Of a stretch of DNA of 10,165 nucleotides, positions 483 to 10,165 are shown one piece after another; within the stretch, counting starts at the first letter, position 1, and every line of letters starts with the position of its first letter. The stretch lies in assembly GCA_029239415.1 (NCBI GenBank), contig JAQZAY010000124.1:1-10165 (forward strand). The letters are read 5' to 3'. A model generated the notes under the pieces. That model saw nothing but the letters and a program-made list of their open reading frames with translations. It made no database searches and had not been told where the DNA came from. Made by a program: the position numbers and the translations under genes. The stretch comes from Pseudomonas sp. GTDB lineage: Bacteria; Pseudomonadota; Gammaproteobacteria; Pseudomonadales; Pseudomonadaceae.

Positions 483-500
483 CATCACGCGGCTAGCGGG

Positions 501-1490
501 TCAGCTTCGCTCCCCACACAGGTCCAGCACGAACCAGCGCTCGGCCGCCTGCACATCCAGCCCCGTGCCCAGCAGCGCGAACATCTTGCCCAGTGCCGCC
601 TCGCGGGTCATGCCGCCGCCACTCACCAGCCCGGTATCACGCAAGCGGCTGCCAGCAGCGTAGGTGCCGAACTCCACCGCGCCCTCGGGGCACTGGCTGA
701 TCGCGGCGATCAGCACGCCGTTCTGGCGGGCGTCACGCAAGGCGTCGAGCAGGGCCTGGTCGTCCGACGGGCCGGTGCCGCTGCCGTAGCATTCGAGCAG
801 CAGGCCCTGGGCGCCGGTGGCCAGCAGGGCTTGCACATGCTGCGCCTGCAGGCCGGGAAACACCGGTAGCACGACCAGGTTCACCGTCTCGCGGACCTGG
901 CGATAGTCGAGGAACGCCGGGATCGACTCGGCTTTTTCACCCTCGCGGTGGCGGGGCAGGGCCACGAAGGCATCGAACGCCTCGCTGCGCAGCTTCGAGG
1001 TGCGCGCGCCGTGCAACAGCTGGCCGTTGAAGTACAACTGCACGCCGTCTTCCAGCTCGCCGGCAAACAGCTGCAAGGCACCTTCGAGATTGACCCAGGC
1101 ATCGCTGCCAGGCGCGCCGGCAGGCAGCATCGAGCCGGTCAGCAGCACCGGCACCGGCAAGCCCAGCAACAGAAAGGACAGCGCCGCGGCACTGTAGGCC
1201 AGGGTATCGGTGCCATGCAGCACCAGCACGCCGTCGTGGCCATCACGCTCGACCGCCTCGACGATGGCGTCGCGCATGGCCAGCCAGTTGGCCTGCTGCA
1301 TGTTGGCGCTGTCCAGCAGTGGGTCGAGCTCGCGCAGCGACCAGTTCGGCCGCGACGCATCAGGGCGTTGTGCCAGGTGCTCGCGCATCCGTGCTTCGAA
1401 GCCGCCTGCGGGCGCAAGACCCGCCGGCGTCTCGAGCATGCCGATGGTGCCGCCGGTGTAGAGGACGAGGAGGTTGTTGACTGCGCGCAT
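501..1490 (-). CDS. ansA: Type I (cytoplasmic) L-asparaginase
   Basis: It should hydrolyse L-asparagine to aspartate and ammonia in the cytoplasm. The product has 329 residues, close to the usual length of the family, and no signal peptide, which favours the AnsA type over the periplasmic AnsB type. Both catalytic threonine motifs are present: YTGGTIG at residues 11-17 (nucleophile T15) and LHGTDTLAY at 91-99 (T94, D95). A lysine matching the catalytic Lys of AnsA sits at K166 in RTSKLRSEAFDAF. I chose the ATG at 1490 because the motif follows it at the normal distance and GGAA lies 6 nt upstream. A longer reading from 1532 would begin inside a hairpin. It follows the alanine/glycine symporter gene on the same strand with a 72-bp gap, so the two may be partly cotranscribed. 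Some homologues are annotated simply as asparaginase; glutaminase activity cannot be judged. Confidence 0.93.
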   Translation of the reverse strand: MRAVNNLLVLYTGGTIGMLETPAGLAPAGGFEARMREHLAQRPDASRPNWSLRELDPLLDSANMQQANWLAMRDAIVEAVERDGHDGVLVLHGTDTLAYSAAALSFLLLGLPVPVLLTGSMLPAGAPGSDAWVNLEGALQLFAGELEDGVQLYFNGQLLHGARTSKLRSEAFDAFVALPRHREGEKAESIPAFLDYRQVRETVNLVVLPVFPGLQAQHVQALLATGAQGLLLECYGSGTGPSDDQALLDALRDARQNGVLIAAISQCPEGAVEFGTYAAGSRLRDTGLVSGGGMTREAALGKMFALLGTGLDVQAAERWFVLDLCGERS

Positions 1491-1522
1491 GGGGCGTTCC
1501 GTGGCGAGGGGAGATGAGAAGT

Positions 1523-1545
1523 GGCCGCCCACGGGAGGGGCGGCC
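1523..1545 (-). terminator. GC hairpin between symporter and asparaginase genes, no U-tract
   Basis: GGCCGCCC (1523-1530) pairs perfectly with GGGCGGCC (1538-1545) around a 7-nt loop, 17 bp downstream of the symporter stop. On the minus strand the sequence after the stem is ACTTCTCATC, with no real U-run. It may attenuate read-through or protect the symporter mRNA 3' end rather than terminate fully. Confidence 0.5.
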
Positions 1546-1562
1546 AGGGAAGCGCGAGGATA

Positions 1563-3005
1563 TCAGCCTTGGGTCTGGACCTGGCCGGTGGCCTTGTCAG
1601 CAGCTGTTTCGAACTGTGGGTTGGCCGGCCAGGCAGTGCGGTCCAGGTCCAGGTCGGCGAACTTGGCGGAGTCGAATACCGGCTGCCTGATGCCGGCGCG
1701 GCGCTGCTCGTCGTAGTCGCGCATCACCCGCAGGCCGACCTTGAACAGCATTGCCAGGGCGATCAGGTTGACGAAGGCCAGGCAGGTCATGGTGATGTCG
1801 GCGAAGGCGAACACGGTCGACAGGTTCTGTACCGAGCCCCACACCACCAGCGCCAGCACCAGGGCGCGGTAGCCCAGCAGCACCAGGCGGTTGCGGCTGA
1901 GGAACTGCAGGCTGGTCTCGCCCAGGTAGTAGTTGTAGAGGATGCAGGTGAACACGAACAGCGACAGCGCGACGCTGACGAACAGCCTGCCCCAGTCACC
2001 GACCACGGCGGCCAGCGAGTTCTGGGTCAGGACGATGCCATCGCCTTCGAAACCTGGGGTATAGAAGCCCGACAGCAGGATCAGCAGCGCGGTGCAGGTG
2101 CAGATCACGAAGGTATCGAGGAACACGCTGAAGGCCTGCACCACGCCCTGGGCACCCGGATGGCGCACGGCGGCGACGGCGGCGACGTTCGGCGCGCTGC
2201 CAAGGCCCGCTTCGTTGGCGAACACGCCGCGCTTCACGCCCATCACGATGGCGCTGCCGAGCAGGCCGCCAAACGCCGGGTCCAGGCCAAAGGCGCTCTT
2301 GAAGATGGTTTCCAGCATCGCCGGCACATGCTCGATCTGGCTGCCGATCACGTACAGGGTCACGCCGATGTAGGCCAGGGTCTTGACCGGCACCAGCAGG
2401 TCGGAGACCGACGCGATGCGCTTGATCCCGCCCAGGAAAACCACCGCCAGCAGCACGGCCAGGGCAAGGCCGGTGTGCTCCGGGGCAAAGCCGAAGGCGT
2501 TCTGCAGCGAGTGGGTCACGGTGTACGACTGCAGGCCGTTGAAGGCAAAGCCGTAGGTCACCAGCAGCAGCACCGAGAACACCATGGCCATGCGCTTGAG
2601 CTTCAGGCCATGCAGGATGTAGTAGGCCGGACCGCCGCGGTACAGGCCGTCACCGTCGGCACGCTTGTAGACCTGCGCGAGGGTGCACTCGAAGAAGCTG
2701 CTGGACATGCCCACCAGCGCGGTGACCCACATCCAGAACACCGCGCCCGGGCCGCCGAGCGTCACGGCGATGCCGACGCCCGCGATGTTGCCCGCGCCGA
2801 CACGGCCGGCCAGGCTCAGCATCAGCGCCTGGAACGAGCTGAGCTGCCCTGCCTGGCCCTTCAGGGATTCCTTGAACACACCGAACATGTGCCCGAAATG
2901 CCGGAACTGCACGAACCGCGAGCGAAGGGTGAAATAGCCGCCGAGTCCGACGATCAGTACGATGAGGAGTTTCCCCGAGAGGAAGTCGTTGAGCATTTCG
3001 AGCAT
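1563..3005 (-). CDS. AGCS-family sodium:alanine/glycine symporter
   Basis: A 480-residue inner-membrane protein that should import alanine and/or glycine with sodium. The family signature is present at residues 70-93 (GAGNIAGVGIAVTLGGPG and then AVFWMW), and a second conserved block, FANEAGLGSAP, lies at about 262-272. Many hydrophobic segments run from residue 12 to about 445, consistent with the usual 10-12 helices, and a soluble polar tail of about 35 residues follows. Length is typical for AlsT/DagA proteins. I chose the ATG at 3005 because GAGG lies 8 nt upstream; a second ATG at 2996 is possible, and the frame is open to 3062 without a better start. The gene is divergent from an HTH regulator gene and lies upstream of the asparaginase gene. 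Alanine versus glycine preference cannot be read from the sequence. Confidence 0.93.
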   Translation of the reverse strand: MLEMLNDFLSGKLLIVLIVGLGGYFTLRSRFVQFRHFGHMFGVFKESLKGQAGQLSSFQALMLSLAGRVGAGNIAGVGIAVTLGGPGAVFWMWVTALVGMSSSFFECTLAQVYKRADGDGLYRGGPAYYILHGLKLKRMAMVFSVLLLVTYGFAFNGLQSYTVTHSLQNAFGFAPEHTGLALAVLLAVVFLGGIKRIASVSDLLVPVKTLAYIGVTLYVIGSQIEHVPAMLETIFKSAFGLDPAFGGLLGSAIVMGVKRGVFANEAGLGSAPNVAAVAAVRHPGAQGVVQAFSVFLDTFVICTCTALLILLSGFYTPGFEGDGIVLTQNSLAAVVGDWGRLFVSVALSLFVFTCILYNYYLGETSLQFLSRNRLVLLGYRALVLALVVWGSVQNLSTVFAFADITMTCLAFVNLIALAMLFKVGLRVMRDYDEQRRAGIRQPVFDSAKFADLDLDRTAWPANPQFETAADKATGQVQTQG

Positions 3006-3127
3006 GGTGAAGCCCTCGATTCTTGTTTTTTTGCGTGAAAGACCGCAGCGGTGTCGTAGCACCGCACCTTGTGGGGCGAATGGTTGGTCATGACAAGAGT
3101 CGTTACAATTTCGCAGGTTGCTCTGAT

Positions 3128-3166
3128 TTGATGCGACCTGATGCTAGAATGGCGTCAGACGCATCA
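3128..3166 (+). promoter_or_regulatory. Putative operator and -10 region of the HTH regulator gene
   Basis: TGATGC occurs at 3129-3134 and again at 3139-3144, exactly 10 bp (one helical turn) apart. TGATGCG (3129-3135) also forms an inverted repeat with CGCATCA (3160-3166). The repeats flank a -10-like TAGAAT at 3145-3150, which has a poor -35 (TCTGAT, 3122-3127, 17-bp spacer). This arrangement would suit repression by the adjacent HTH protein. This is inference from spacing only. Confidence 0.35.
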
Positions 3167-3181
3167 TCTGGAAGGGCGCCC

Positions 3182-4000
3182 ATGAGCGAACATTTCGCCG
3201 CCAACCTCAAGCTCGCCTGCAGCCATTACCGCTCTATCTCGGAGGTTTGCCGGCAGCTTGCGATCAATCGCGCGCAGTTCAACAAGTACCTGAGCGGTCA
3301 GAGCCGGCCGACCGCCTACAACCTCAAGCGTATCGGTGACTTCTTCGGCGTCGAGGACTACGAGCTGGGCCTGCCGCCCGAGCAGTTCGCCCGCCTGATC
3401 GGCGCGCGCAATACCGAGAGCCTGGCACGCCAGCAGGGCAACCCGGTCAGCGACCTGCTCGAGCCCCTGCGCGCGCATGCGGGCAACCTGTCACGCTACT
3501 GCGGCTACTACTTCGAATACTCCAACTGCATGTCGGTACCCGGCACCATCCTGCTGTCGCTGGTCCACCTGTATGAAGAGCGCGGCAGCTTCCTGTTCGA
3601 GCGCCAGGAGCGCCAGGAACGCACCAGCAGCACCGACGTCCAGGCCGAGGACTGGGTACGCTGTCGCTACCTGGGCGCTGCCTTCCAGCTGCAGGACCGC
3701 CTGTTTCTCATCGACTACGAATCGCTGACCTTCAACGAGATGAGCCAGACCATCCTCATCCCCAGTTTCAAGAGCCGCATCACGCGCCTGAACGGCCTGA
3801 AGACCGGCGTGTCGAGCGGCGACCGCCGGAACCCGGCCTGCACCCGCGTGGTCTGGGAATACCTGGGGCCTGAGATAAACCGCATCAACGCGTACCGACA
3901 GGTGAAGCTGTATCGCCCGGATGACCCGCGTATCGACGATGACGTGCGCGAACGGCTGAACGTCGGGCCGATTCGCAATGGATTGTTCGAAATCGAATGA
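3182..4000 (+). CDS. XRE-like helix-turn-helix transcriptional regulator
   Basis: A 272-residue predicted cytoplasmic DNA-binding protein. Residues about 8-62 form a Cro/C1-type HTH: the segment ISEVCRQLAINRAQFNKYL gives the helix-turn-recognition-helix, followed by SGQSRPTAYNLKRIGDFFG, the conserved end of that domain. Residues from about 90 to 272 are a larger, non-repetitive domain that I do not recognise; it may sense a ligand. The ATG at 3182 has GGAAGG 6 nt upstream and starts right at the domain; the frame is open back to 3023 but would add 53 residues of low-quality sequence. It is divergent from the symporter gene and followed 96 bp later by the RmlD-like gene. It could regulate either side or itself. 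It resembles the regulator I recall at PA4070 in P. aeruginosa. Target and ligand are unknown. Confidence 0.85.
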   Translation: MSEHFAANLKLACSHYRSISEVCRQLAINRAQFNKYLSGQSRPTAYNLKRIGDFFGVEDYELGLPPEQFARLIGARNTESLARQQGNPVSDLLEPLRAHAGNLSRYCGYYFEYSNCMSVPGTILLSLVHLYEERGSFLFERQERQERTSSTDVQAEDWVRCRYLGAAFQLQDRLFLIDYESLTFNEMSQTILIPSFKSRITRLNGLKTGVSSGDRRNPACTRVVWEYLGPEINRINAYRQVKLYRPDDPRIDDDVRERLNVGPIRNGLFEIE

Positions 4001-4024
4001 TGCCATCCTGTCGCAGGCCTCGCG

Positions 4025-4055
4025 TTGGACTTCCCTCGCAGGAAACCGCAATAAT
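4025..4055 (+). promoter_or_regulatory. Weak candidate promoter for the RmlD-like/epimerase pair
   Basis: TTGGAC (4025-4030) and AATAAT (4050-4055, 5 of 6 to the sigma-70 -10) lie upstream of the ATG at 4097. The 19-bp spacer is longer than ideal and the -35 match is poor, so the pair may instead be read from the regulator promoter. Confidence 0.3.
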
Positions 4056-4096
4056 GTTCGCTTTCCTCGATCAACCTGTTCGGATCTGCTGACTCT

Positions 4097-4973
4097 ATGC
4101 GAATGCGCCTGATGCTATTGGGTGGTGGAAGTGCCCTCGGGCAAGCGCTGATTCGCCTCGGAGCCGAGGAGGATGTAGCCTTCATCGCGCCGCGCCCGCC
4201 AGACACCGGCTGGAATGCGGCAAGCTTGACCCAGCTGCTCGATGACACTCGCCCGGATGCGCTGATCAACCTGGCCTACTACTTCGACTGGTTCCAGGCC
4301 GAGTCGGTCAGCGACCAGCGCCTGGCCCAGCAGGAGCGGGCGGTCGAGCGACTGGCCGAGCTGTGCCAGCACCATGAGATCAAGCTGGTGCAACCTTCGA
4401 GCTACCGCGTGTTCAACGGTTTGCGCGCGACGGCCTACAGCGAGAAAGACGAGCCCGCGCCGCTGGGCCCGCGGGGCCAGGCCTTGTTGCGCATCGAGCA
4501 GAGCGTGCGCGCCATCTGCCCGCAACACGTGCTGCTGCGCTTTGGCTGGGTGCTCGACGAGAGCATCGATGGCGCGCTGGGACGTTTCCTGACCCGCGCC
4601 GAGCAACCCCACGAATTGCTGCTGGCCGACGACCGGCGTGGCAACCCGACACCCGTGGACGACGCGGCCCGGGTGATCCTGTCGGTGCTCAAGCAGCTGG
4701 ACTGCGCGGCGCCGCTGTGGGGCACCTATCATTACGCTGGTAACGAGGCAACCACGCTGTTGGCGCTGGGGCAGGCTATCCTCAGTGAAGCGGCCCAGTG
4801 GCACAAGCTGGCCGTGCAGGCGCCGACCCCGCAAGCCCACGCCTCGCGTCCCGATGCGAGCGATGAGCCGCAGCACGCGGTGCTGGCCTGCAAGAAAATC
4901 CTCCATACCTTCGGCATCAAGCCACGCGCCTGGCGCGCCGGCTTGCCGCCCCTACTGGATCGATTCTATCGTC

Positions 4974-4981
<8 letters not shown>
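4097..4981 (+). CDS. RmlD-like NAD(P)-binding protein, degenerate SDR active site
   Basis: A 294-residue extended-SDR protein of the RmlD (dTDP-4-dehydrorhamnose reductase) type. The N-terminal strand and glycine loop read LMLLGGGSALGQAL, where the usual middle glycine of GxxGxxG is serine. The segment PSSYRVFNG (100-108) matches the family motif STDYVFDG, and RFGWVLD (148-154) matches RTSWVYG. The catalytic YxxxK is not conserved: in the segment PLGPRGQALLRIEQ (122-135), which aligns with PxxxYGxxKLxGE, the Tyr and Lys positions are R126 and L130. It is therefore unlikely to be a working reductase and may bind nucleotide or partner with the epimerase. Its stop overlaps the epimerase start by 8 bp, which implies translational coupling. 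The start at 4097 has a poor ribosome site; ATG 4103 is an alternative. It resembles PA4069 as I recall it. Confidence 0.82.
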
Positions 4982-5909
<928 letters not shown>

Positions 5910-5911
5910 CG

Positions 5912-5940
5912 AAAAAACGGCGATCCGATCGCCTTTTTTT
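5912..5940. terminator. Bidirectional terminator between epimerase and oprG
   Basis: GGCGAT (5919-5924) pairs with ATCGCC (5928-5933) around a 3-nt loop, with A6 to the left and T7 to the right. It works in both directions and lies between two convergent genes, 10 bp from the OprG stop. Confidence 0.88.
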
Positions 5941-5949
5941 CGTCTGGAA

Positions 5950-6633
5950 TCAGAACTTGTAGCCGATGCCGACCATGTAGACCCACGGGTCGACATCCAC
6001 GTCGACCTTGGTTTTGCCCACGCCCAGGGCGGTCGGACCGTCGATGGTCGCCTTGGTGTCGATGTCGACGTACCAGACCGCGGCGTTGACCAGCAGGTTG
6101 TCGGTCACCATGTAGTCCATGCCCAGCTGCCCGGCGATGCCTACCGAATCCTGCAGTTTCATGTTGCTGAAGCCCTGCTGCTTGCGGGCACTGCTCAGGT
6201 CTTCATCGAAGAACAGCGTGTAGTTGATGCCCACGCCGGCGTACGGCTGGAACCTGGACGAGGCGTCCATCGGGTAGTACTGCAGCGACAGGGTCGGTGG
6301 CAACTGCTTGATGTCGGCCAGCTTGCCGTCCAGGCCGCCGCCCAGGCCCTTGACGCCTACGGTGTGCTTGAACGGTGTGGCGGCCAGCAGTTCGAGGCCG
6401 ACGTGGTCGGTGAGCATGTACGCGAATGCCAGGCCCAGCTGGGTGTCGCTGGTCAGGGTCGCCTTGGTGCCAGACATCCTGGCACCATCGAGTCTCAGCT
6501 CGCCGCTGTCCTCGTTCGGGGCGGTGGTGATGGCACCGGAGCGGATGACGAAATCGCCAGCCTGGTGGGCGTTGGCGACAGGCGCGGCGAGCGCCAGGGC
6601 GACGAGCGAGGCGCCGAGCAAGGACTTGTTCAT
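5950..6633 (-). CDS. oprG: Outer-membrane protein OprG, OmpW family
   Basis: A 227-residue precursor of an eight-stranded outer-membrane beta-barrel. OmpW/OprG channels are reported to let small hydrophobic molecules or small amino acids cross the outer membrane. The signal peptide MNKSLLGASLVALALAAPVANA ends at a clear AxA site, giving a mature start HQAGDFVIRSG, the typical OmpW N-terminus. Later blocks fit the family: LGLAFAYMLTDHVGLELLAA, LPPTLSLQYYP and YAGVGINYTLFF. The C-terminus GIGYKF ends in Phe, as outer-membrane barrels do. The ATG at 6633 has GGGAG 4 nt upstream and begins the signal peptide; the frame is open to 6693 but those residues precede the signal. It is transcribed separately from the zinc-type operon behind it, probably from an ANR-dependent promoter. 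Confidence 0.93.
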   Translation of the reverse strand: MNKSLLGASLVALALAAPVANAHQAGDFVIRSGAITTAPNEDSGELRLDGARMSGTKATLTSDTQLGLAFAYMLTDHVGLELLAATPFKHTVGVKGLGGGLDGKLADIKQLPPTLSLQYYPMDASSRFQPYAGVGINYTLFFDEDLSSARKQQGFSNMKLQDSVGIAGQLGMDYMVTDNLLVNAAVWYVDIDTKATIDGPTALGVGKTKVDVDVDPWVYMVGIGYKF

Positions 6634-6668
6634 GAAGCTCCCAAAGGACGTCAAAAAATTGTGGCCCA

Positions 6669-6710
6669 ATGGTACGGAGCTGTTTAACCGCAAAACTTGA
6701 TCTGGCTCAA
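6669..6710 (-). promoter_or_regulatory. ANR/FNR box and -10 element upstream of oprG
   Basis: TTGATCTGGCTCAA at 6697-6710 (reading TTGAGCCAGATCAA on the minus strand) matches the TTGAT-N4-ATCAA consensus at 9 of 10 positions. A -10-like TACCAT lies at 6674-6669 on the minus strand. If it is used, the box is centred at about -41.5, the normal position of a class II FNR-type activator. OprG of P. aeruginosa is reported to be anaerobically regulated, which agrees. Confidence 0.72.
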
Positions 6711-6739
6711 TGAAAGGTGCGTCCTAGACGGCCCAGTGC

Positions 6740-7264
6740 TCATTGCAGCTCATAGGTATAGATTTTCTCGGCGTCCATCCGGTAGCCGGCGTCGGCCAGT
6801 TCGCTGCGAGTGGCCTGCACCTGCATCTGCCCTTCGATCCAGTAGGGCTGGTAGAGGTCTTCGATGCGCACGCCCATTTCGCTGAAGATGTGCACGATCT
6901 GGTTCGGCGGTGGCGGTGGCACGTGGATGCAGGCGCCGTAATAGGGCACCAGCAGGAACTCGGTGGTACGGCCTCCCTCGCTGACCTCCAGCGGCACGAT
7001 GTAGCCCGGCAGCTTGACCTGTTGGCCGTCGAGCGCCTTGACCACCGGGGCGTCGGGCGCCGGCTGGGGGGCTGCTGGTGCGGACTCGGCCGCCAGGGCA
7101 TCGCCGAGCCGTGACAGTTGCGAAATGTCGTGCAGTGGCGTCAATTGCGGCTCGATCCGTGGTGCGCCTTCCGGGATCAGCTGTGGCCAGTCGAGGGTGC
7201 GCGGCTCGCCCGCCCACAGAGGAGTGACGAGGAACAGCAAGAGCAGCAGCAAGGTGCGGGGCAT
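6740..7264 (-). CDS. DUF3299 family secreted protein
   Basis: A 174-residue predicted periplasmic protein or lipid-free envelope protein of unknown function. The N-terminus MPRTLLLLLLFLVTPLWA is a signal peptide with probable cleavage after LWA. A P/A-rich linker (about 60-74) leads to the DUF3299 core: GYIVPLE (87-93), TEFLLVPYYGACIHVPPPPP (101-120) and NQIVH (121-125). C112 and H114 are candidate metal or redox ligands, which is inference. It is the last gene of the operon, starting 9 bp after the permease stop, with GAGAA upstream of the ATG. The position behind a zinc-type ABC system suggests a periplasmic accessory role. It resembles PA4066 as I recall it. No terminator is seen behind it. 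Confidence 0.87.
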   Translation of the reverse strand: MPRTLLLLLLFLVTPLWAGEPRTLDWPQLIPEGAPRIEPQLTPLHDISQLSRLGDALAAESAPAAPQPAPDAPVVKALDGQQVKLPGYIVPLEVSEGGRTTEFLLVPYYGACIHVPPPPPNQIVHIFSEMGVRIEDLYQPYWIEGQMQVQATRSELADAGYRMDAEKIYTYELQ

Positions 7265-7273
7265 GTCAGGTTC

Positions 7274-8539
7274 TCAGAGATGGATGGACAGGCCATCGGC
7301 CAACGATTGCCGATAGGCGCGCCAGGCCGGCACGCTGCCCATCAGCAACGCTGCGCCAAGGATGATCGCCAGCAGCGTCCATTCATGCGCGCTCGGCCAG
7401 GCCAGCGGCAGGTCCAGGCCGTAGTTGGCCTGGACATGGCCCCGGGCCACGGCGATACCCAGGTAGAGCAGGCCCAGCCCGGCAACGATCCCGCTCAGCG
7501 CCAGGGCCAGCGCCTCGAGCACCAGCAGCCCTGCGATATGCCAGGGTCGCGCGCCGACCGAACGCAGGATGGCCATCTCGCGGCGTCGCTCGTTGAGACT
7601 GGTGAGAATAGCCGTCAGCATGCCGATCAGCCCGGTCAGCACCACGAACAGCGAGACCACCAACAGCGCCTGCTCGGCCGTGCCCATCAGGCCCCACAGC
7701 TCCTGCAGCGCCACACCGGGCAGGATTGCCAGCAACGGCTCGCCGCGAAACTCGTTGATCTGCCGTTGCAGGCTGAAGGTGGCGATCTTGCTGTTCAGGC
7801 CCAGCATCACGGCGGTGATGGCGGTTGGCTGCAGGTCCATGGCCCGCGCCTGGTCCGCGCTGATGCGTCCGGCGCCGCGTGCCGGCACGCCGTTGTGCCA
7901 GTCGATATGGATCGCTTGCATGCCGCCCAGGCCGATGTGCAGGGTGCGATCGACCGGTGTGCCAGTGCGAGCCAGCACGCCGACCACGGTGAAGGGCTTG
8001 TCGTCGTGCTTGACCAGGCTGATCGCGGCCACGCCATGGGCCAGCACCAGCTTGTCGCCCAGCTTGTAGTGCAAGGCGTCTGCCACCTCAGCGCCCAGTA
8101 CCACCTCGAAAGGATCATCGGCGAACACGCGTCCCTGGCTCAGGTGCAGGTGCTGCCTGCGCCCGTACTGATAGTGCGCGAAGTACTCGCCAGTGGTGCC
8201 CATCACCCGGTAGCCGCGGTGCGAATCGCCCAGCGAGAGCGGGATTGCCCATTTCACCCGCGGGTCCTTGGCATAGTGCTGGTAGCTGTCCCAGCGGATA
8301 TTGTTGGTGGCATTGCCGATGCGAAAGACCGAGTAGAGCAGCAGGTTCACCGACCCGGAGCGAGCCCCGACGATCAGGTCGGTGCCGCTGATGGTGCTGG
8401 CGAAGCTGGTGCGGGCCTCGGTGCGCACGCGCTCGACGGCCAGCAGCAGGCACACTGACAGCGCGATGGCAAACGCGGTGAGAAAGGCGGTGAAGCGCCG
8501 GTTGGCCAGGCTGGCCAAGGCAAGGCGGAGCAGGTACAT
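7274..8539 (-). CDS. ABC transporter permease, MacB/LolE (FtsX-like) type
   Basis: A 421-residue inner-membrane permease. It has one N-terminal transmembrane segment (about 17-37), a large periplasmic domain of about 240 residues, and three C-terminal segments (about 290-313, 335-360, 385-408). This is the topology of MacB, LolC/E and FtsX, which move substrates in or out of the envelope mechanically rather than through a classical import channel. The C-terminal part shows the FtsX-domain hallmark NERRREMAILRSVGARPWHI. The periplasmic domain has several histidine clusters (YFAHYQYGRRQHLHLSQ, IHIDWHNG), which is interesting next to a His-rich partner but unproven as metal sites. Its ATG shares one base with the ATPase stop (TGATG), indicating translational coupling. 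Substrate is not readable; zinc-related function is inferred from context. Confidence 0.9.
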   Translation of the reverse strand: MYLLRLALASLANRRFTAFLTAFAIALSVCLLLAVERVRTEARTSFASTISGTDLIVGARSGSVNLLLYSVFRIGNATNNIRWDSYQHYAKDPRVKWAIPLSLGDSHRGYRVMGTTGEYFAHYQYGRRQHLHLSQGRVFADDPFEVVLGAEVADALHYKLGDKLVLAHGVAAISLVKHDDKPFTVVGVLARTGTPVDRTLHIGLGGMQAIHIDWHNGVPARGAGRISADQARAMDLQPTAITAVMLGLNSKIATFSLQRQINEFRGEPLLAILPGVALQELWGLMGTAEQALLVVSLFVVLTGLIGMLTAILTSLNERRREMAILRSVGARPWHIAGLLVLEALALALSGIVAGLGLLYLGIAVARGHVQANYGLDLPLAWPSAHEWTLLAIILGAALLMGSVPAWRAYRQSLADGLSIHL

Positions 8540-9258
8540 CAGGCCTCCCGGGGCGGGGTCGGGCTGGCCGCCCGATTGAGCTCGGCCAGGGACAGGTGAC
8601 GGTCGAACATGGGCGCCAGGCTCTGGTCATGGCTGACGAACAGCAAGCTCGAGCCGGCGTTGCGGCACTCGTCGAACAGCAGGCGGATAAAGGCTTCGCG
8701 GGTATCGGCGTCGAGCGCCGAGGTGGGTTCGTCAGCGATCACCAGCTCTGGCTGGCCGATCAGCGCCCGCGCGGCAGCTACCCGCTGCTGCTGGCCGATC
8801 GACAGGCTGCCGGCGCGCCGGGCAAGCAGCGCCGGGTCGCTCAGTCCAAGGTGCGCCAACAGCTGGCGGGCTGCCTGGTCGACACTGCCGTGACGCTGGA
8901 GGGCACGTGCGGCTCGGCTGCGCGAGAAGCGGCAGGGCAGCTCGACGTTTTCGCGCACCGACAGGAAGGGCAGCAGGTTGAACTGCTGGAAGATGTAGCC
9001 GGTGTGATCGACCCGGAACCGATCGCGAGCGCCCTGGCCCAGCTCGCCCAGGTTCTGGTCGAGCAGGCGAACGCTGCCTTGCCCAGGGCGATTCACCCCG
9101 CCCAGCAGGCCGAGCAAGGTGGTCTTGCCGCTGCCACTGGGGCCCTTGAGAAACAGCGCCTCGCCGGTCTCCAGGCGAAAGTGCGGTATGTCCAGCAAGG
9201 GTGGCTGGCCCGGCCAGGCAAAGACCAGGTCATGCAGCTCGATCAGCGGCGCACGCAT
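8539..9258 (-). CDS. ABC transporter ATP-binding protein, MacB/LolD type
   Basis: A 239-residue cytoplasmic ATPase that drives the adjacent permease. Motifs in order: Walker A GPSGSGKT (39-46), Q-loop QQFNLLPFLSVRENVELP (91-108, typical of the LolD/MacB class), signature LSIGQQQRVAAARAL (152-166), Walker B LVIADEP with catalytic E177, D-loop SALD, and H-loop H210. All catalytic residues are intact. Length is normal for LolD-like subunits. The stop codon of the upstream DUF2796 gene is at 9261-9259 and the ATG begins at the next base, so translation should be coupled. With the upstream gene frameshifted, coupling and transcription may be impaired here by polarity. Confidence 0.94.
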   Translation of the reverse strand: MRAPLIELHDLVFAWPGQPPLLDIPHFRLETGEALFLKGPSGSGKTTLLGLLGGVNRPGQGSVRLLDQNLGELGQGARDRFRVDHTGYIFQQFNLLPFLSVRENVELPCRFSRSRAARALQRHGSVDQAARQLLAHLGLSDPALLARRAGSLSIGQQQRVAAARALIGQPELVIADEPTSALDADTREAFIRLLFDECRNAGSSLLFVSHDQSLAPMFDRHLSLAELNRAASPTPPREA

Positions 9259-9681
9259 TCAGAACGCGACCACGGCCTGGGCCGGGCTGGCCTGCAGGCC
9301 TTTCTGGCCGTTGGGACCGATCAGTTGCACATTGATTGTCTGGGTGGCCGGGAAGGTCGTGAACAGAGGGCCAAGGTCGAGTCGAGCCAGTTTGCCCGGC
9401 TGGGCGCAGGTCAGTTGGTAGTGGGCGTGGATGTCAGTGTGTTCGTGGCCTGCCGCTGACGCATCGCCGAACAGCGGGCTCTGCAGGTCCTTGGCGCTTT
9501 CGCTGCAGCCAGCGTCCTGGGCAAGGCCGAACAGTGCCAGCGGTTGCTCCAGTTGCTGGCGCACGGCTGCGACCTTGGCCTTGTCGGCGTCGCTGCTGGC
9601 GGCGTGCTCGAAACCCACGAGGTTCATCGCCGGCGTGTCGAGTTCCAGCTCCAGCGTGTTGCCATCGAGTGCCACGTTCAG

Positions 9682-9731
9682 GCTGGCGACACCGTGCTCA
9701 TGGGCAGCTGGCGACACCGTGCTCATGGGCA
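9682..9731. repeat. Exact 25-bp tandem duplication causing the frameshift
   Basis: Copy 1 is 9682-9706 and copy 2 is 9707-9731, identical and adjacent; both begin GCTGGCGACACCG. 25 is not a multiple of 3, so the coding strand shifts by one base. The duplication encodes AHEHGVAS in the proper frame of one copy. Confidence 0.97.
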
Positions 9732-9750
9732 CCGAGGCTGCCGTGCTGGT

Positions 9751-9780
9751 GATCGTGATCGTGATCGTGCTCGTGCTCGT
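9751..9780. repeat. Hexamer repeat encoding Glu/Asp-His dipeptides
   Basis: Five units: three GATCGT followed by two GCTCGT. On the minus strand they encode EHEHDHDHDH, the metal-binding type stretch just after the signal peptide. Units are 6 bp, so copy-number change alters histidine number without moving the frame. Confidence 0.9.
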
Positions 9781-9876
9781 CGTGGGCATGGGCCAGGGCC
9801 AAGGGGAGCAGGGCAAAGGGCAGGGCGAGCAACAGACGGCGCATGAAGGACTCCGGTACGGATGCTGAAAGATTTC

Positions 9877-9894
9877 GTAATGTTATAACAACTT
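9877..9894. promoter_or_regulatory. Putative Zur box upstream of the zinc-type operon
   Basis: GTAATGTTATAACAACTT contains the perfect palindrome TGTTATAACA (9881-9890). The left half matches the GTAATGTTATAACATTAC-like Zur sites described in proteobacteria as I remember them; the right half is weaker after TAACA. It lies 33 bp before the operon's ATG, where a repressor would block transcription. In P. aeruginosa the apparent homologues PA4063-PA4066 are reported as zinc-starvation induced. Confidence 0.55.
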
Positions 9895-9975
9895 CGGCGG
9901 CATGCACCAGTGCGCTTGGCGACGTCGGGCGAGCATGGGAGCATAGGAGCCTTGGACCCGTGGAAGGATAGAACC

Positions 9976-10165
9976 GTGAGAATTCGAGGACAGATCGGCG
10001 AATGGCCAGTGGACCTGACCATCGAGCTGGATCCGGCGGAGTGGGCGCAGTTGGAGCGACAGCTCAAGACGCCGGTTGCCACCCCGGCCGCGCCGACACC
10101 GCAAGCCGCGCCGCGGCAGGACGACGGGCAATGGCTGGAGGCCTGTGACCTGTTGCGCCAGGCCG
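9976..10165 (+). CDS. Unrecognised protein, N-terminal part only
   Basis: An open frame starting with GTG at 9976, with GGAAGGA (9962-9968) 7 nt upstream, runs off the right edge. The 63 visible residues begin VRIRGQIGEWPVDLTIELDP, contain EWAQLERQL, then a P/A-rich linker (about 34-48), and then DDGQWLEACDLLRQAG. No signal peptide or membrane segment is seen. I do not recognise the family. It is divergent from the zinc-type operon and shares its 131-bp upstream region, so the putative Zur site might affect it as well. Confidence 0.75.
   Translation, partial: MRIRGQIGEWPVDLTIELDPAEWAQLERQLKTPVATPAAPTPQAAPRQDDGQWLEACDLLRQA

Follow-up and report, generated by a model that had tools for sequence, protein, structure and literature searches.

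A 25-bp tandem duplication breaks the frame of a zrgA-like gene in one putative Pseudomonas contig: recent null allele or assembly artefact

The stretch of DNA analysed here (the window, 10,165 nucleotides) contains a zrgA-like gene on the minus strand, inside which two identical 25-bp units abut at 9682-9706 and 9707-9731. This locus raises the question of whether the array is a mutation carried by the organism, a switch used by its population or a product of assembly. The nearest matches suggest that the DNA comes from a Pseudomonas lineage. We lean towards a 25-bp tandem duplication that arose once, and recently, in one such lineage and would leave a null or near-null zrgA allele, and we infer that the duplication is present in the organism itself.

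The array and the divided gene

Tandem Repeats Finder delimited the array at 9682-9731 with a period of 25, 2.0 copies and a 100% match. When up to three mismatches were allowed, the 25-mer was found twice in the window, both times exactly, against an expectation of 0.00 (200 shuffles). These results confirm the statement of an earlier, sequence-only reading that two identical units lie side by side. No matching bases were found at the edges of the array beyond its two units, and a hairpin at the array is not unusual (z 1.07; folding was equally or more stable in 177 of 200 shuffles). Neither edge homology nor folding accounts for the formation of the array. A near copy on a plasmid was considered and rejected: the two matches among 72,556 plasmid records were both 71% identical to the query and covered 66% and 16% of it. 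The longer match (H1, CP109682.1, 46726-47323) is a zrgA-related DUF2796 gene in a P. aeruginosa plasmid record of 424,881 bp.

The features of the locus are collected in Table 1. As the sequence-only reading had claimed, the product ends after 48 residues; it begins with a leader-like segment, continues through a His/Asp tract into A-H-E-H-G-V-A-S and is ended by the stop codon. The ZrgA-like gene was also correctly described as being out of frame, in that the body (9705-9262) matches the full PF10986 profile in another frame (E 2.6e-48; 164.5 bits against a curated cutoff of 27.4). An unbroken frame from the leader to the C terminus is absent from the zrgA of the window and is lost at the array. 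With the ZrgA equivalog model NF047873 of NCBIfam, the body piece scored 105.3 bits, below the cutoff of 185 bits, which the full-length proteins P0003, P0004 and P0008 also miss with 99.4-99.6 bits. The reading of the zrgA product as a secreted protein is drawn from its leader-like start only, and the protein may be considered a putative secreted one.

The 25-bp unit holds an ATG that lies outside the frame of the gene itself, and the ATG of copy 1 is in frame with the body. This opens a possible restart ORF, which the earlier reading overlooked. From the unit length and the frame it follows that, whatever the size of the array, its penultimate copy supplies an ATG in the frame of the body. 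Considering that no good ribosome-binding site can be read before the copy-1 ATG, its use as a start is doubtful. The two proteins corresponding to the parts of the gene, P0001 and P0121, have one member and one contig each, so that the array is seen in one contig only; both are predicted database entries of the window's own contig and are not independent evidence. For each of them the longest contig recorded is 10,165 bases, equal to the window, which is thus probably a complete contig.

Table 1. Positions of the zrgA locus features within the window
Feature	Position	Strand	Remarks
Upstream element GTTGTTATAACATTAC	9877..9892	-	upstream of zrgA; resembles what we take to be a Zur box
5' part of zrgA as it stands	9698..9844	-	ATG 9844, 48 residues, TGA 9700-9698; identical to P0121
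6-bp repeat encoding the His/Asp tract	9749..9780	-	12 bp longer than in PS910, in frame
Unit copy 1 (gene direction)	9707..9731	-	spans the conserved A-H-E-H-G-V-A-S stretch
Unit copy 2	9682..9706	-	identical and adjacent to copy 1; entered out of frame, holds the stop
Possible restart ORF, 155 aa	9259..9726	-	starts at the copy-1 ATG; no N-terminal leader; identical to P0001
zrgA body	9259..9705	-	undamaged, other frame; PF10986 profile positions 1-161 of 161
ABC transporter ATPase	8539..9258	-	ATG directly after the zrgA stop (TGAATG)
MacB/FtsX-type ABC permease	7274..8539	-	profile match and ORF list
DUF3299 protein (PF11736)	6740..7264	-	profile match and ORF list

Copy number and reading frame in relatives

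A genome scan covered the best 80 of 491 confirmed stretches, comprising 77 titled Pseudomonas, two titled Pantoea and one Paucimonas MAG. An open zrgA of 180-201 codons from a window-like start was present at all 80 loci, and an exact tandem repeat with a period of 13 to 79 bp around the unit was found at none of them. The nearest genome, PS910 (L001), showed a 90% match to the body and one copy of the unit. A further 48 loci, which are partly dependent (L081 and L101 are from the genome of L001, and others may repeat species), all had an open frame longer than 165 codons with start-like and G-F-E-H-like motifs. A search for perfect tandem repeats with units of 15-200 bp found none across the 80 loci (825,014 bases, with a run of N in L024 left aside) and none across the other 48 (184,302 bases). 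Accordingly, with no such repeat in related loci, the array is unusual and probably short-lived.

The protein set gave a similar view. Among the best 120 of 2,664 hits, 119 are 179-195 aa long and only P0001, from the window itself, has 155 aa. P0002-P0006 are full length and 99-100% identical to the window over the 148-aa body, the identity being 100% for P0002-P0004. The sequence-only reading had suggested aligning close relatives in order to see whether one copy is the norm, and this is the case for PS910, for the 79 other loci of the scan and for P0002-P0006, which are full length. A survey of the genus gave a protein match in 392 of 398 genomes and no inner stop among the matches listed; many genomes were matched in two pieces and were left outside the closer look.

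Among 21 short N-terminal zrgA peptides, one of which is the window's own, none of the 20 others ends at the same break. By eye, five of the 20 (P0122, P0126, P0131, P0136 and P0139) end in what we take to be translated adapters, and six (P0124, P0125, P0129, P0134, P0135 and P0140) look like contig ends. The other nine (P0123, P0127, P0128, P0130, P0132, P0133, P0137, P0138 and P0141) have frameshift-like tails at scattered places, which may represent either sporadic null alleles or errors.

Over window positions 498-10165, the alignment with PS910 showed 88.6% identity across 9,687 columns with 17 gaps, and by our reading the 25-bp insertion is the sole gap among them that would break a gene. 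A 12-bp insertion lies in frame in the His tract. Two groups of gaps, at 1507-1514 and 5876-5887, each net zero, and the gaps at 5912, 5926, 5941 and 6732 are intergenic. Those at 3072, 6634, 6658, 9945 and 9964 fall inside mechanically listed ORFs, upstream of the start judged likely. In the part compared, and with the PF10986 body undamaged, the earlier impression that no other damage is visible therefore held. The length of the His/Asp tract differs among the near-identical proteins P0002-P0006; judged from these sequences, the length-variable element of the gene is the 6-bp His tract, and it stays in frame.

Recent allele, artefact or switch

On the one hand, an exact array of 2.0 copies within a gene that is undamaged elsewhere, together with open frames at 80/80 and 48/48 related loci, argues for a real allele of recent origin. 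On the other hand, the array comes from only one contig, and the same exact array results when two ends that have 25 bp in common are joined. In this contig zrgA, which leads an operon resembling PA4063-PA4066, has lost its frame, and its body and the remaining operon genes are undamaged. If the duplication is real, it would have arisen once and recently. The 48-aa product, having a leader, a His tract and one H-x-H motif, presumably could not do the work of ZrgA. Any 155-aa product started at the copy-1 ATG would probably stay cytoplasmic because it has no leader, and the restart may keep the adjoining ATPase gene translated. Contraction to one copy would be possible, as in any short tandem repeat, with no sign of use as a switch.

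A precedent for the proposed event is found in lrp of Xenorhabdus, for which a published study gives tandem duplications of 26-116 bp as 3 of 25 distinct mutations (PMC6786866). Both cases concern a tandem duplication of tens of bases within a coding gene, whereas the Xenorhabdus mutations were found by sequencing isolates and the present array is known from one assembled contig. By analogy, a short tandem duplication would be an ordinary spontaneous change, and the mechanism is likely to be ordinary as well. The same study reports no genetic reversion in eight isolates; the legend names sense, nonsense, frameshift and transposon mutants among these but no duplications, and the result is therefore silent on the reversion of duplications (PMC6786866).

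The main competitor of a recent allele is an error of assembly or library preparation, to which we give a substantial chance, though short of an even one. In this case, two ends sharing 25 bp would have been joined unmerged, or a chimeric read would have been incorporated, beside a His tract that varies among strains, and the organism would have one copy. The junction might, for example, be a chimera between two strains. Exactly two units without extra matching bases are what an unmerged overlap gives. The array also adjoins the tract that differs among near-identical proteins, and the residue just before the unit varies (SLG in P0003 and P0004; SLA in P0002, P0005 and P0006). Its occurrence in a single contig fits an error too, and the five presumed adapter ends among the 20 other short peptides indicate that such errors occur in this kind of data. 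However, the rest of the contig is clean against PS910 where compared, and a de Bruijn assembler with k >50 would, by reasoning only, need reads spanning the array.

The sequence-only reading had further proposed a slippage switch that is on at 1 or 4 copies and off at 2 or 3. Each extra 25-bp copy shifts the frame by one, and unit 2 is always entered in the TGA-bearing frame. Therefore, every array of at least two copies stops at the same place within unit 2, and four copies would be off, so that the predicted on state at four copies is wrong. A switch between one copy (on) and at least two (off), frequent enough to give a mixed population, appears improbable. In its favour, exact direct repeats can contract, and near-identical full-length proteins exist. 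Nevertheless, no second duplication was found in 80 or in 48 loci (0/80 and 0/48), none of the 119 other listed proteins has the restart length, none of the 20 other short N-terminal peptides has the same end point, and the two copies present belong to a series in which the frame does not return at higher copy number. The relatives sampled comprise one genome per species, so that a rare state within a species could have escaped. The locus shares with contingency loci of phase variation a direct repeat of a length not divisible by three, but it differs in that copy number is invariant among the relatives examined, there are two copies, and the frame does not return. In the literature titles and abstract openings searched, a tandem-duplication switch of zrgA was not described.

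An elaborated form of this proposal is very improbable. In that form, a population would keep zrgA partly off by gaining and losing the 25-bp stretch with its H-x-H zinc-ligand motif. While zrgA is off, the cell would export a His-rich peptide about 30 residues long, and the copy-1 ATG would maintain translation of the leaderless body and of the neighbouring transporter genes. The operon would thus change from making a full zinc-binding protein to making a small peptide that binds zinc. We give the least credence of all to the idea that zrgA became a pseudogene long ago as selection on it relaxed in this lineage, which would account for the broken frame but not for two identical unit copies, for a 148-aa body identical to that of three full-length proteins (P0002-P0004), or for the finding of no other gene-breaking indel against PS910 in window 498-10165. 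The earlier view that the event is recent or an artefact is in line with one copy in the relatives examined, with the identity of the two copies and with the undamaged remainder of the gene.

If the recent duplication is real, the locus holds a natural null allele, of recent origin, of a Pseudomonas gene for a Zur-type metal-binding protein and hints that the operon is dispensable when zinc is abundant. If it is an artefact, it shows how an overlap left unmerged can mimic a frameshift switch. Either way, knowledge of zinc handling and of phase variation is unchanged.

The operon and the zinc motif

The body of the window gene resembles members of the ZrgA/PA4063 family (PF10986, DUF2796), namely the PA4063 structure 7ahw (E 1.1e-52) and chain 8ezw (E 1.5e-17), which is named only 'Zinc-binding protein' and which we take to be the structure of V. 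cholerae ZrgA. The window gene differs from this family in its broken frame. In the alignment with chain 8ezw, the A-H-E-H-G of the window falls opposite A-H-V-H-G (positions 13-17 of the chain). In V. cholerae ZrgA, the first zinc site is described as containing His 35 and His 37 (PMC9820375). If 8ezw is V. cholerae ZrgA and begins at Asp 22, both of which we infer, the aligned His residues would be His 35 and His 37. Accordingly, a zinc-ligand motif probably lies within the duplicated unit, and this may be a mere coincidence of place.

The gene is followed by an ABC ATPase and a MacB-like permease in the order of ZrgA (PF10986) operons. It heads the operon, and the succession of ATPase, MacB-like permease and a further protein fits the PA4063-PA4066 layout; the DUF3299 protein is equated with PA4066 solely on account of its position in the operon. 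The element at 9877-9892 is a candidate Zur box. Its core GTTATA[AT] occurs at most 75 bp upstream in 23 of the 23 starts located, the start pattern having missed 57 of the 80 loci.

In P. aeruginosa, PA4063-PA4066 is reported as a Zur-regulated operon and is proposed to export a pyochelin-cobalt complex through a MacB-type system (PMC11481552). In V. cholerae, zinc uptake by the operon is reported to require zrgA, with the internal His-rich loop being dispensable (PMC9820375), and from this the loss of zrgA should matter. The function of the operon, zinc import in V. cholerae versus pyochelin-cobalt export in P. aeruginosa, is not agreed, and 'zinc uptake' is therefore used here as a label and not as a result.

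Elsewhere in the window, the gene at 3023-4000 had no NCBIfam match. It precedes two adjacent sugar-nucleotide genes on the plus strand (4097-5909), one RmlD-like and one GalE-like according to NCBIfam matches that are both below the curated cutoffs.
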